Below, in pieces: positions 31,561-36,606 of a DNA stretch of 64,000 nt (positions are counted from its first letter, which is position 1; each line of letters starts with the position of its first letter). The stretch lies in the NCBI RefSeq assembly GCF_017873605.1, contig NZ_JAGGKI010000015.1, positions 62,001-126,000 of the forward strand, read 5' to 3'. The DNA is from Paenibacillus lactis. Lineage in GTDB: Bacteria > Bacillota > Bacilli > Paenibacillales > Paenibacillaceae. The notes below the pieces were generated by a model. The model made no database searches, was not told where the DNA came from, and saw only the letters and a list, made by a program, of their open reading frames with translations. Made by a program: the position numbers and the translations under genes.

Positions 31561-31594
31561 AAAAAAGACGACACCAGCAACAGCTAGTGTCGTC
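31561..31594 (-). terminator. Rho-independent terminator of the peptide ABC operon
   Basis: On the minus strand GACGACACTAGC (31583-31594) pairs with GCTGGTGTCGTC (31567-31578), followed by TTTTTT (31561-31566). Confidence 0.92.
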
Positions 31595-31609: not shown

Positions 31610-33433
31610 TTACTTGCTCGCCTTATAAGCAGCCAAGTATTCCTTCACCTTCGCCGGGTCCGCTACGAGCTCGTTGCCGGTTTTGACGATCGGGCTCACG
31701 GTGGAGTAGGCTTTGATTTTGTTATTGTTGTAGTAAGCAAGGATTTCATCCTGGTTGATCGAGTAGAGCACCGCTCTTCTCAGATCTTCGCTGCTTGCCA
31801 CATCGCGATTCTTCGTATTGAAGAGCAGGTAAGATACCGCGTTGCTCTCAATGGTTTGCAGCTTCAGCTTGCTGTCGCCCTTCACAACGTCGTACTTCGT
31901 TTCAGGCACGCCGTAGTAGAGGTGAATCTCGCCGCTGCGCAGCGCGGAGAGCGTGCTGTCGGCGTCCTTGATGAAGCGGACTTTCACTTGCTCGATTTTC
32001 GGCTCATGCTCCGTACCCTTCATGTAACCAGGGTTTTTGTAGAAGATGGCCTCGTAATCGTTCTTGTAGGACAAGATGTAAGGACCGCTTGCAAACAGCG
32101 TATTGTTGTATTTGTCGCCTTCCGTTACCGTGTTTTGGTCACCGTAAGGAATGTCTTTGTTCACATCGAATTTCTCGACATCATAGGTGTTGATGGATTC
32201 AACTTGTTTCTTTGACACGATCCCTGCGGATTGGTGAGCCAGGTAGTTCAGAACTTGCGGGAACGGCTCAGTGGTCGTCAATTTGATGACCTGGTATTTA
32301 CCGTCCTTGGTGCTGGCCTGGTTTTTGTCGCTGACCAGGGAAGTGATTTTGGTGTCGAGGCCTTTCTCCAGCGCTTCTTTCACGCTTTCGCCGCCACCGG
32401 ACACCTTCGTGTTCTCCAGTACGCTCAGATCCGTGACCGCTTCAACGGTATTGATGTGCTCGTGAAGGGTGTAGGTACGGTGATCCGGCACGGAGTTTTT
32501 GTCCTTCGCACGATTCATCGAGAAGATGACATCGTCTGCACCAACGCGCTCGCCGGAGTCAACGGCTTTTTTATCCGTGATTTTGGCGAAGTTGATATCG
32601 TCGCGAAGAATGAAATAGTACTCCGAGTTGCCTTCCGCAATGGCATGATTATAAGACAGAGAGCCTTCGGACGTGATTTTGTCGTCATCGGTCAGGTTGA
32701 TCAGACGGACGTTCATGTTGGTGTTGATGATGTTGATGGAACCGTCGTTTCCTTTGATCGGGTCAAGGGAAGTCAATTCGGAAATCGATTGGGACAAAAT
32801 AAGCGGCTGCGTTGCGCGCTTCGACTGGTCTTTGAAATCAACGGCTTCCCATGGCAGGGAGCGGGATTTCGACAGACGGACGGAGTTCTCGTCAAGAACG
32901 TCCTTGTTGAACGCCTGGCTCTTCAGAGAGATGTAAAGCGGCGCAATGTAGGCTTTTTCCGTCACGAGGCGATCCTCGAGCTTTTTATAAGTGGCAACAG
33001 CCTCTTCCGGCGTTTGGGTAGCGGCTTCGTCAATCAGCTTGTCCACTTCTTCATCGGACATAATGCTGTAGTCGCCGCCGGTTTTGAACAAGGAACGAAC
33101 GGCATAGTCCGGGTTACCGGTAACCGTCGTCCAGCTGGACAGCGCGACATCGTAGTTGCCGGCATCCTGCTGGGCTTTGAAGCTGCCGTAATCAGGCTGA
33201 AGATTCAGCTTCACGTTGAAGCCGTTTTTGGTCAGCTGGTCACGGATGATATTGACATCGGATTCGTTAGAGCTCATACCGAGCAGCTCAATCGTCACCG
33301 CCGAAGCGTCCGTGGACGAATCCGTTGGTTCTTGTTGGTTTTGCTGCTGTGCGTCCTCTTTGGTTTTTACGTTGCATCCTGCCAGTACGATGACGAGCGA
33401 GAGGAACAGCAACAGCAAGGAACTCTTTTTCAT
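31610..33433 (-). CDS. Family 5 (peptide/nickel) ABC binding lipoprotein with circularly permuted domain order
   Basis: A 607-aa lipoprotein (LAGC lipobox, C20) of the OppA/DppA class. Segment order is unusual. Residues about 46-175 look like the C-terminal end of SBP_bac_5 proteins (IIRDQLTKNGFNVKL, NYDVALSSW, EEVDKLIDEA, YKKLEDRLVTEKAYIAPLY). The normal N-terminal part follows from about 210 (SELTSLDPIKGND), then ADDVIFSMNRAKD, ASGPYILSYKN and DLRRAVLYSINQDEI. The protein ends in DPAKVKEYLAAYKASK, where ordinary members would continue into the C-terminal lobe. The fold is thus probably complete but circularly permuted. It is the last gene of a minus-strand operon with both permeases. The substrate is unknown. 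Confidence 0.85.
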   Translation of the reverse strand: MKKSSLLLLFLSLVIVLAGCNVKTKEDAQQQNQQEPTDSSTDASAVTIELLGMSSNESDVNIIRDQLTKNGFNVKLNLQPDYGSFKAQQDAGNYDVALSSWTTVTGNPDYAVRSLFKTGGDYSIMSDEEVDKLIDEAATQTPEEAVATYKKLEDRLVTEKAYIAPLYISLKSQAFNKDVLDENSVRLSKSRSLPWEAVDFKDQSKRATQPLILSQSISELTSLDPIKGNDGSINIINTNMNVRLINLTDDDKITSEGSLSYNHAIAEGNSEYYFILRDDINFAKITDKKAVDSGERVGADDVIFSMNRAKDKNSVPDHRTYTLHEHINTVEAVTDLSVLENTKVSGGGESVKEALEKGLDTKITSLVSDKNQASTKDGKYQVIKLTTTEPFPQVLNYLAHQSAGIVSKKQVESINTYDVEKFDVNKDIPYGDQNTVTEGDKYNNTLFASGPYILSYKNDYEAIFYKNPGYMKGTEHEPKIEQVKVRFIKDADSTLSALRSGEIHLYYGVPETKYDVVKGDSKLKLQTIESNAVSYLLFNTKNRDVASSEDLRRAVLYSINQDEILAYYNNNKIKAYSTVSPIVKTGNELVADPAKVKEYLAAYKASK

Positions 33434-33507: not shown

Positions 33508-35016
33508 CTAGTCCAGCTTCGGATCGAGCGCATCCCGCAGTCCGTCCCCCAAAAAGTTGAAGGACAGCACGAGGGCAATGATGGCAAGACCCGGATAAAT
33601 CGCCAGGTAGGAGTTGGTCTCCAGATACGTGCTTCCGATTTTGAGGATATTTCCCCATTCCGGAATATGAGGCTCTACCCCAAGGCCCAGGTAACTCAAA
33701 CTGCTTGTCGAGATGACCGCCGCACCGATGGTCAACGTCGATTTGACGATCATAGGCGCAAGGGAATTCGGAACGATATGCTTGAAAATAATCGAAAAAT
33801 TGCTGGAGCCGAAGGCTCTGGCCGCATCCACGTATTCGTATGTGGAAACAAGCATGACATTCGCCCGCATCGTTCGGGCATACGTCGGGATGGCCCCTAC
33901 GCTAAGCGCAAGAATAAGGTTGACCGTATTCGCGCCGAATGCCGCGATGATCGCGATGGCGAGCAGGATGCCCGGTATCGCATACAGCACGTCAAGCAGC
34001 CGCATGATGATGTTGTCCGTCTGACGGCCGTAATAGCCGGATATGGCTCCAAGGATCCCGCCGATAATCACCGGGATGAGGGTGGATGCGAATCCGACGA
34101 TCAGCGAGATTCGTGCGCCGAACACGATCCGGGAGAATAAGTCCCGCCCGAAATTGTCGGTGCCGAACGGATACTCCAGACTAGGCGGCAGCAGGATCGC
34201 GCTGTAATTGTTGTCGATCGCGACGCTGTAATCAAAGGTGAATACGCTGCATACCGACAGGCAGAACAGAAAGATGACAAAGAACAAACCGGCCATCGCC
34301 GTCGAGTTGGCAGTCAGCTTGATCCATACGTCGCTCCAGCGCGTCATCGCCGGATTGCCATTCTTGCGGATTTTTGCCAGCAGGTTAATCCCGAGCACCA
34401 GTGCAAAAATGTTGCCGGTTGCCGCTGTAACAATAATCGGCAGCGCGAGCCACACAAGCTTCGGATGCGCATAGTGGCTCGTAACGAACTTAGCAACCAA
34501 AAGCAGTGCGATCAGTTGAAGGATTGCAACCACGACGAGGATGAACATCGCCGGTAGAAAAGTGTTCGATACATAAGGCTTGAACAAATTGAGCGCCGAG
34601 ATAGCGATGACATAGAGCTGGGTTAGCAGCATGTACACCGCAATGGTGTACTCGGGAGGCTTCTGCTGTTTGACGAGGTTAAAACCGAACGTAACGGTAA
34701 ACAGATTCCCGGTTATGATGCTTAGCAGCTGGATGTATCCGAGCAATCGGGTTGATCGCCTGATGTCCCCGGTCCGAAGAAGGTCCCGCCGGATCAGGAG
34801 CGTAATAATCATCTGAACGATCGTAAATAGGGCATACGCAGCAAAGGCGGTAAATACCCAAGGCTTCAAGGCGCCTCCAGCGAAATCAAAGCTGTTCAGC
34901 AGCAGGATCACGGACAGAGTCAATGATATAACCCATGTGAAGCTGGCTTGACGGTACTCCGGTGATGATTTCAGCTGGTGTGCAGTGCCTTGCTTAGATT
35001 GTAGCTTCTTGATCAT
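33508..35016 (-). CDS. DppC/OppC-type ABC permease with a long N-terminal membrane extension
   Basis: A 502-aa protein; ordinary DppC/OppC permeases are about 280-320 residues. The C-terminal part from about 225 is a normal permease: HPFGTDNFGRD-like YPFGTDNFGRDLFSRI, GASISLIVG-like GARISLIVGF, and the EAA loop YVDAARAFGSSNFSIIFKHI. The first 220 residues form about six extra hydrophobic helices of no recognised family. It starts 13 bases after the DppB-type gene and is followed by the binding-protein gene. The extension may interact with the equally extended DppB partner. Confidence 0.85.
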   Translation of the reverse strand: MIKKLQSKQGTAHQLKSSPEYRQASFTWVISLTLSVILLLNSFDFAGGALKPWVFTAFAAYALFTIVQMIITLLIRRDLLRTGDIRRSTRLLGYIQLLSIITGNLFTVTFGFNLVKQQKPPEYTIAVYMLLTQLYVIAISALNLFKPYVSNTFLPAMFILVVVAILQLIALLLVAKFVTSHYAHPKLVWLALPIIVTAATGNIFALVLGINLLAKIRKNGNPAMTRWSDVWIKLTANSTAMAGLFFVIFLFCLSVCSVFTFDYSVAIDNNYSAILLPPSLEYPFGTDNFGRDLFSRIVFGARISLIVGFASTLIPVIIGGILGAISGYYGRQTDNIIMRLLDVLYAIPGILLAIAIIAAFGANTVNLILALSVGAIPTYARTMRANVMLVSTYEYVDAARAFGSSNFSIIFKHIVPNSLAPMIVKSTLTIGAAVISTSSLSYLGLGVEPHIPEWGNILKIGSTYLETNSYLAIYPGLAIIALVLSFNFLGDGLRDALDPKLD

Positions 35017-35029
35017 GAGTACACCTGCT

Positions 35030-36472
35030 TTAGTATTGTTTCATCTTGGATCGGATCCGTGGATCGAAGAACGCGTACAAGATATCGATAATGACGTTCA
35101 CCAGCGATATGGTGATGGCGGTATAAACGACGCCGCCCATGATGGCCGGTATATCAGGGATGAATTGCTTGTCCACGATGTAGCTCCCGATACCGCTAAT
35201 GTTGAACACTTTTTCCGTAACGGCCGAGCCGCCCATCATACCCCCGAATTGAAGACCAATGACGGTGATGATCGGAATAATGGCATTGCGGACCGCATGC
35301 TTCATGAGAATCGTCTGTTTTCCGAGTCCCTTCGCTCTGGCCGTGATCATATAATCTTCATGGATGACCTCAAGCGTCGAGGAGCGCGTCATTCTGGCAA
35401 CGGAAGCGGTAAGTCCCGTACCGAGCACAATAACCGGCATCACGATGGACAGCCAATTCTCCGGATTGAAGGTTGCCGGCAGCCACTGCAGCTTAATCGA
35501 GAAATTCAGGATAAGGATTAATCCTTGCCAAAAGTTCGGGATAGACAATCCGATCAGCGCAACGAACATGAACGTATAATCGAAGAACGAGTTCGGTCTG
35601 GTTGCCGAAATAATGCCGATCGGCAGCGCGATCGCAATCGCAATAATGAGCGAGATGACGGTCAGCGTCAGCGTGATCGGGAATTTTCGGGCGATGCTGT
35701 TCGTAATATCCTCGTTGCCCGAGAACGATTTGCCAAGATCGAAGTAGGCAATGCCCTTGATGTTGTTCCACAGCTGCGTCAGATAGCCTTGATCGAGACC
35801 GTGCATTTTATTGAAGGCCGCGATCTGCTCCGGCGTTGCCGTCTCTCCTAAAATATTGGCTGCAGGATTGAACGGCGACAAGTACAGGATGGTAAATACG
35901 AGAACCGCTACCCCGAAGATGACGAGAATCGTCATCGCAAGCCGTTCCACAATATATTTCAGATAGGGACTGCGATATAAAAATATAAGAATATACATCA
36001 GCAGACCCGGGATCAGTGATATAATGAAGAATAACGGATTGGCGATCAGTCGGTCGAACGTATCGGCCATGGTCAAACGCTTCTTATTATTTAATAGAAG
36101 CTCCTTGGTCGTCCGGTCACGTAGCTCCTCCTTAAACCGGGCCTGTGCGATTCGTTCAACTTCCTGCTGGAGCTGCTGCTCGCTGATCTTCTGCTTGAAG
36201 AACTCGTGCTTGCGCTTCTGCTGCTGGGCAATCTCGGCCTGGAGGGCTTCCAAATACCCGGATGCAAGCATCGCGCTGCGAATGCGGTTCTCGGCGGCTG
36301 TATAGTCGTCCTTCCTTCGCTGGACCAAATAAAAGAGGAAGACCACGAGATTAACGGGTGCTCCCAATAATAATAGTAAGTATTTATAAGAAGGATTCAG
36401 AAGGATCTTATGATAAGTGGTGCTTATCGAACCTATGAGTCCGCCTCTTCTAGCTGCTTCCGTCCCCCCCAT
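35030..36472 (-). CDS. DppB/OppB-type ABC permease with an N-terminal helical extension
   Basis: A 480-aa permease. Residues about 160-480 are a standard DppB/OppB domain (RLAMTILVIFGVAVLVFTIL, LGLDQ-like MHGLDQGYL, YFDLGKSFSGN, EAA loop DYMITARAKGLGKQTI). Ahead of it lie about 140 residues: one helix near 33-51, a charged Q/K/E-rich coiled-coil stretch (about 55-120) and another hydrophobic segment near 145-165. The ATG at 36472 is preferred because AAGGAGG lies 11 bases upstream; an earlier in-frame ATG at 36505 has no RBS. It is the first gene of the minus-strand operon, divergent from the ATPase gene. Confidence 0.85.
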   Translation of the reverse strand: MGGTEAARRGGLIGSISTTYHKILLNPSYKYLLLLLGAPVNLVVFLFYLVQRRKDDYTAAENRIRSAMLASGYLEALQAEIAQQQKRKHEFFKQKISEQQLQQEVERIAQARFKEELRDRTTKELLLNNKKRLTMADTFDRLIANPLFFIISLIPGLLMYILIFLYRSPYLKYIVERLAMTILVIFGVAVLVFTILYLSPFNPAANILGETATPEQIAAFNKMHGLDQGYLTQLWNNIKGIAYFDLGKSFSGNEDITNSIARKFPITLTLTVISLIIAIAIALPIGIISATRPNSFFDYTFMFVALIGLSIPNFWQGLILILNFSIKLQWLPATFNPENWLSIVMPVIVLGTGLTASVARMTRSSTLEVIHEDYMITARAKGLGKQTILMKHAVRNAIIPIITVIGLQFGGMMGGSAVTEKVFNISGIGSYIVDKQFIPDIPAIMGGVVYTAITISLVNVIIDILYAFFDPRIRSKMKQY

Positions 36473-36606
36473 AAGGTGTCTTTCCTCCTTGTTTCTAAAT
36501 TGCATTATTCCGAGCGATATAGTATATTTTATTTTGAGATATATTAAAAGTCAATAGATTATTAGCGTCTTACGCGATGACATAATGCATATGGCAGGTG
36601 AGGAAG

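Follow-up and report, generated by a model that had tools for sequence, protein, structure and literature searches.

Glutathione import in Staphylococcus aureus is attributed to GisABCD-Ggt, encoded by SAUSA300_0200-0204, and according to passages of the report on this system, gisA is divergent from gisBCD-ggt, GisB and GisC have nine predicted membrane regions, GisD is a lipoprotein, and the complete GisABCD-Ggt was found only in S. aureus-related staphylococci (PMC10355420). A naturally permuted ABC binding protein has been described in Treponema, where TpMglB-2 (Tp0684), a permuted cluster B protein, is designated 'type Ic / cluster Bc' in passages of a paper whose authors discuss horizontal spread and an origin from two genes (PMC4990184).

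The window, by which we mean the whole 64,000-nucleotide stretch of Paenibacillus lactis DNA that was analysed, holds an operon resembling GisABCD (Table 1). As in S. aureus, a gisA-like gene is divergent from genes in the order gisB-gisC-gisD, the permeases are extended, and the three-gene run of permease, permease and binding protein ends with a lipoprotein gene; unlike GisABCD-Ggt, the operon has no adjacent ggt. Since ggt is missing from the genome (no PF01019 match), we call the window protein GisD-like, not GisD. The permeases and ATPases are of the Dpp/Opp type, a positive result for family-5 membership. We consider it very probable that the last gene encodes the lipid-anchored binding protein of a GisABCD-like importer, and that the mature protein represents a naturally occurring circular permutation of the family-5 (cluster C) fold.

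Table 1. Features of the GisABCD-like operon, in window positions.
Feature	Position	Strand	Details
Terminator-like hairpin and T run	31561..31594	-	3' of the binding-protein gene; read by eye
Permuted family-5 binding lipoprotein gene	31610..33433	-	Coding 31613-33433, stop codon 31610-31612; 607 aa
N-terminal part of the family-5 fold, now behind	31613..32809	-	Residues 209-607, limits approximate; profile matches, DppA 206-336 for the end
C-terminal part of the family-5 fold, now in front	32834..33298	-	Residues 46-200, limits approximate; profile and PDB matches
Signal peptide and lipobox LAGC	33374..33433	-	Residues 1-20; read from sequence
OppC/GisC-like permease, 502 aa	33508..35016	-	BPD_transp_1 and OppC_N on residues 225-501; N-terminal extension of ~220 aa
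OppB/GisB-like permease, 491 aa	35030..36505	-	BPD_transp_1 and BPD_transp_1_N on residues 182-485; N-terminal extension of ~180 aa
GisA-like double ABC ATPase, 583 aa	36598..38349	+	Divergent; two ABC_tran stretches

The permease extensions (34357-35016 and 35966-36505) gave no Pfam match at E 0.01, and by hydropathy the window pair has 9 and 8 membrane-like segments, whereas each permease of an ordinary pair has 5. We examined 33 stretches (the window, L021-L036 and L051-L066, where L066 repeats L025), of which 29 combined the binding protein with the two permeases and a single divergent double ATPase; two separate ATPase genes lie inside the operon in L035 and L060 instead of the divergent double ATPase, and the operon is incomplete in L036 and L064. 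By tblastn, a permease is split over two frames at L025:7730-7921 (GisC-like, also in L066) and at L027:4892-6332 (GisB-like), reflecting a frameshift or a sequencing error. In a search with a profile built from these operons, which remote extensions elsewhere would escape, 34 of 397 class genomes gave a match to the GisC-type extension. Each of these belongs to the 35 genomes with the permuted gene, and the two features lie on the same contig within 5 kb, as judged by eye; the remaining genome is G411. This joint occurrence in the class sample makes co-evolution of receptor and permease extension testable.

Order of the two fold parts

The window binding protein scored 144.7 bits against Pfam SBP_bac_5 (PF00496), for which the curated cut-off is 32.4, and the test for the ordinary linear order was negative, with the match falling into two reversed pieces: the C-terminal side matched profile positions 12-280 (119.7 bits), and the region close to the N-terminus matched positions 299-366 (30.5 bits, E 7e-7). 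These reversed pieces lead us to class the protein as a permuted relative, and not as an ordinary PF00496 member. Seven further family-5 genes detected in the P. lactis genome each gave a match in one piece. The only other Pfam matches of the protein at E up to 1 were to two weak signal-peptide families. NCBIfam scores of such proteins are far under the cut-offs, and family matches stay partial because the order of the parts is swapped.

The order was evaluated further by a rotation test, in which the start point was moved around each sequence, and the result scored with a profile from 12 ordinary family-5 proteins. The profile came from a clean set, with five near-duplicate rows of 17 left out, and it superseded an earlier, less clean version containing at least two wrong ORFs (L016 and L068). 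With the clean profile, rotation lifted the best single-domain score in all 12 family members, and in the native order of every one the C-part (profile 373-528 at its widest) preceded the N-part (49-374 at its widest) without overlap. The best rotated start was at residues 174-203 in 11 of the 12, and the domain then ran from profile position ~50-68 to 512-525. Ordinary controls, scored with profiles leaving them out, had their optimum at the native order (9 of 12) or within 8 residues of it (3 of 12), with a gain of at most 1 bit, and the test agrees with the circular permutation that the earlier note had proposed.

For the window protein itself, the clean profile gave a best start at 248 and 165.8 bits, compared with 105.9 bits for the best native piece, and the best rotated domain covered only 171-517, with the first profile piece remaining separate. 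With the earlier, less clean profile, starts at 171-211 were within 3 bits, and the domain covered 50-523 for starts at 186-201. The native matches placed profile positions 56-172 at residues 207-337 and positions 171-374 at residues 381-602, behind the C-part match described below, and the gap between the matches of the two parts was at most ~33 residues (174-206). Solved structures gave the same picture, as query residues 60-165 aligned to 379-488 of 5u4o and query residues 448-582 to its residues 200-332, and 3tpa matched in three pieces, in rotated order. The segments cited in the earlier note were found at the expected places, namely IIRDQLTKNGFNVKL at residue 62, NYDVALSSW at 93, EEVDKLIDEA at 128, AYIAPLY at 161 and LDP at 223. 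Each occurs in a single copy, and the two fold parts are present once, with profile pieces that do not overlap, as required for a reordering without duplication. Sequence comparison gives strong support for a circularly permuted family-5 order.

We weighed two readings in which no permutation has occurred. The default annotation, whose best Pfam stretch is confined to residues 265-602, would allow an unrelated N-terminal domain fused to an ordinary, truncated binding protein, but residues 48-173 match positions 387-514 of the family-5 profile (56.7 bits), and the same residues align with the C-terminal parts of solved family-5 proteins. These matches contradict a separate unrelated domain, and we regard such a fusion as very improbable. 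Hardly conceivable is an assembly artefact or a dead gene: L025 has an additional, frameshifted fragment close to the gene and L064 no more than a partial copy, yet open frames in the same order are present in 34 of 398 class genomes, plus one fragment, and on 15 named contigs, and mean column identity is 85% over 16 aligned rows. This reading is contradicted by the independent genomes in which the frame is open in the same order.

Distribution and origin of the swapped order

Relatives in the same order were found in 10 of 60 genomes (75-100% identity, the genome of the window included), and at 16 loci in genome contigs, one of them partial, which include Sporosarcina (73%) and Tissierella (66%). 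The class sample contained relatives in 35 of 398 genomes, 34 of full or nearly full length and one a fragment (G411), and a phylum-wide sample contained them in 4 of 398 genomes, all from the window's own family. In the class and phylum-wide searches, as in those with the N-part and extension profiles, only a few candidates were scored per genome. A direct profile check placed the C-part ahead of the N-part in 31 of the 33 stretches, and the other two, L036 and L064, hold partial genes. Homologues of the same order, whose presence in other Paenibacillaceae the earlier note had left as a question, therefore exist there and beyond (31 of 33 loci; 12 of 12 members tested), and as far as sequences tell, the swapped order is family-wide and not due to chance. 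In a tree of 30 members, with midpoint rooting only, three f19 loci lie on a long, fully supported branch.

Some loci carry damaged copies. At L025:10939-11315 (Paenibacillus sp. JCM 10914), a frameshifted fragment of a second copy lies behind the intact gene, corresponds to residues ~443-590 and is 54-70% identical. Since the whole family shares the permutation, this fragment does not represent an intermediate step. L064:9984-10830 (G411) retains no more than the final stretch of the ATPase gene and the last ~215 residues of the binding protein, which looks like loss of the other operon parts, and at L027:7959 (Paenibacillus sp. DMB20), the binding-protein frame is without ATG, GTG or TTG at the expected start.

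The swapped order had earlier been explained as permutation of one gene by tandem duplication and trimming. The permuted order is borne out by sequence, but the duplication and trimming are not, since no intermediate came to light and the two parts did not give parallel scores. We looked for a conventional near sister by searching 299 class genomes with the N-part profile, and permuted proteins scored 577-721 bits, the best ordinary protein 71 bits. Bit scores of the C-part and N-part against solved structures, with one chain per protein and absent proteins set to zero, gave rho -0.20 (39 proteins, p 0.21), compared with 0.41 (44 proteins) and 0.48 (49 proteins) in ordinary families among the matches listed, the three control lists holding the best 60 of 107, 116 and 90 rows.

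Because no intermediate was found and the part scores are not parallel, we considered that a C-terminal part from an OppA/MppA/AppA-like gene might have been fused, in swapped order, to an N-terminal part from a DppA/GsiB-like gene. None of the seven OppA-group chains was matched by the N-part and all seven by the C-part, while controls matched them on both sides (7 and 6 for the first control, at least 6 and 7 for the second, among the matches listed), and together with the score correlations this gives a hint of a two-gene chimera rather than one permuted gene. However, the permuted family has diverged further than the control families, so sensitivity is reduced, and 5u4o, ranked first among the PDB matches of the C-part, is matched by the N-part too (35.5 bits, 17th row). 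Scores of the parts against 15 genome proteins gave rho 0.19, a value equally low in 3 of 16 ordinary proteins. We therefore judge a chimeric origin possible but somewhat unlikely; if it were true, the product would function alike. A broader proposal, that GisABCD-type importers are a distinct architecture in which a permuted receptor, fused from two family-5 genes and tethered by the opposite lobe, co-evolved with extended permeases, seems to us doubtful. Were it correct, docking would differ from that of Dpp/Opp systems, and staphylococcal GisD would be alike. Whichever way the order arose, we continue with the reading of a circularly permuted binding protein.

Break point, lipid anchor and predicted fold

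The N-part matched DppA 206-336 at its end, and the C-part matched DppA 367-470, aligning from its 17th profile position. When an ordinary DppA-like family was cut at the matching point, the split fell at DppA 339/342 among the matches listed. Judged from these alignments and from the DppA domain limits, the break lies within domain III, near DppA residues 339-351, and separates a helix from a strand. The earlier note had the protein ending just where the C-terminal lobe would begin; the end falls instead inside domain III, at DppA ~339. Its idea that the anchor has moved to the other lobe fares better, since homology to DppA, combined with the same domain limits, would place the lipid anchor on domain III. 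The lipobox LAGC occupies residues 17-20, Cys20 is the sole cysteine of the protein, and the match to Pfam LPAM_1 (E 0.077) is under the cut-off.

AlphaFold models reached a pLDDT of 42.2 with 16 close homologues, and of 52.8 with a trimmed alignment that included two fragments of one conventional protein, both too low to confirm the fold. In a Foldseek search with the latter model, no match was obtained at E 0.001 or better, and the best was DppA (1dpe, 1.2e-3). VIA-align placed residues 183-481 of this model (protein 229-527) on DppA 20-258 (Z 8.2, rmsd 5.5), a weak match that is consistent with the sequence mapping. A search of viral contigs for relatives that might deepen the alignment found none.

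In sequence, the chain runs from the lipobox through the part that normally closes the fold, a short joint, and the part that normally starts it, to a stop that alignment to DppA places within domain III. We suggest that the usual two-lobed form is retained, as a short stretch links the former termini and the new termini lie between a helix and a strand, and that the protein is tethered through domain III rather than domain I. What it binds and passes to the two permeases with added membrane segments would most likely be glutathione or a related cysteinyl compound, and the fused double ATPase would power import.

Kinship with GisD and comparison with known receptors

One of the 33 stretches, L051, has the published gis order including ggt, extended permeases, and a binding protein in the swapped order. 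Only in L051-L053 does ggt lie beside the operon, and the binding proteins of these loci share the swapped order. The L051 protein begins with 18 residues ending in LSG, followed by CGVPT, and its calculated precursor mass is 67.2 kDa. For SAUSA300_0203, the gisD locus, '18', 'LSG C' and '66' are printed in PMC5020093 and 'C GVPT' in PMC5727369, in excerpts that do not include the column meanings. From gene order and lipobox, we infer that the L051 protein corresponds to S. aureus GisD, and since a swapped protein is encoded at a locus that combines the published gis-ggt arrangement with the GisD lipobox CGVPT, GisD itself is probably permuted.

The window protein is ~39-40% identical to the f19 relatives, among them L051 and L053, over its full length and in the same swapped order, and by kinship with GisD our best guess for its ligand is glutathione. 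The assignment is uncertain, because the genome is without ggt, ggt adjoins the operon only in L051-L053, and identity to the f19 relatives is at this level. In all, ggt is present in 34 of 44 genomes carrying the system or a fragment of it. The first PDB matches of the N-part were YliB (51.7 bits), which we take to be GsiB, and Lmo0135, titled CtaP (49.8 bits), in a practical tie with DppA (48.6 bits). In Tissierella, the gene directly behind the binding protein (L035:9880-11214) matches PF03313 (E 7e-56), a family that presumably includes cysteine desulfidases, which is a possible hint at a sulfur ligand.

GisABCD-like operons that have no ggt beside them are present in Paenibacillaceae, Sporosarcina, Tissierella and other families, whereas the passages of PMC10355420 give a restricted distribution for the complete GisABCD-Ggt. 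Relatives in other Bacillota have conserved the swap, and the S. aureus protein for glutathione uptake is probably one of them. The stem 'permut' is absent from the main text of PMC10355420 and PMC12510641, and among the literature matches listed, in a search with preprints not covered, no permuted binding protein was of family 5. Proteins with swapped parts may escape homology searches, as their family matches stay partial.

The window protein resembles DppA, OppA and GsiB (PF00496, cluster C) in its profile over both parts, in being a lipoprotein, and in its Dpp/Opp-type permeases and ATPases, and differs from them in the swapped order of the two parts. A natural permutant among peptide-binding receptors suggests that the tether can switch lobes without loss of the system, and such a switch offers a test of how receptors dock on permeases. 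The closest precedent for a permuted binding protein, going by the passages of PMC4990184, is TpMglB-2, which like the window protein is a naturally permuted, lipid-tethered ABC binding protein. TpMglB-2 has a type I / cluster B fold and a sugar ligand, whereas the window protein matches PF00496, and because the fold classes differ, the two permutations are separate events.
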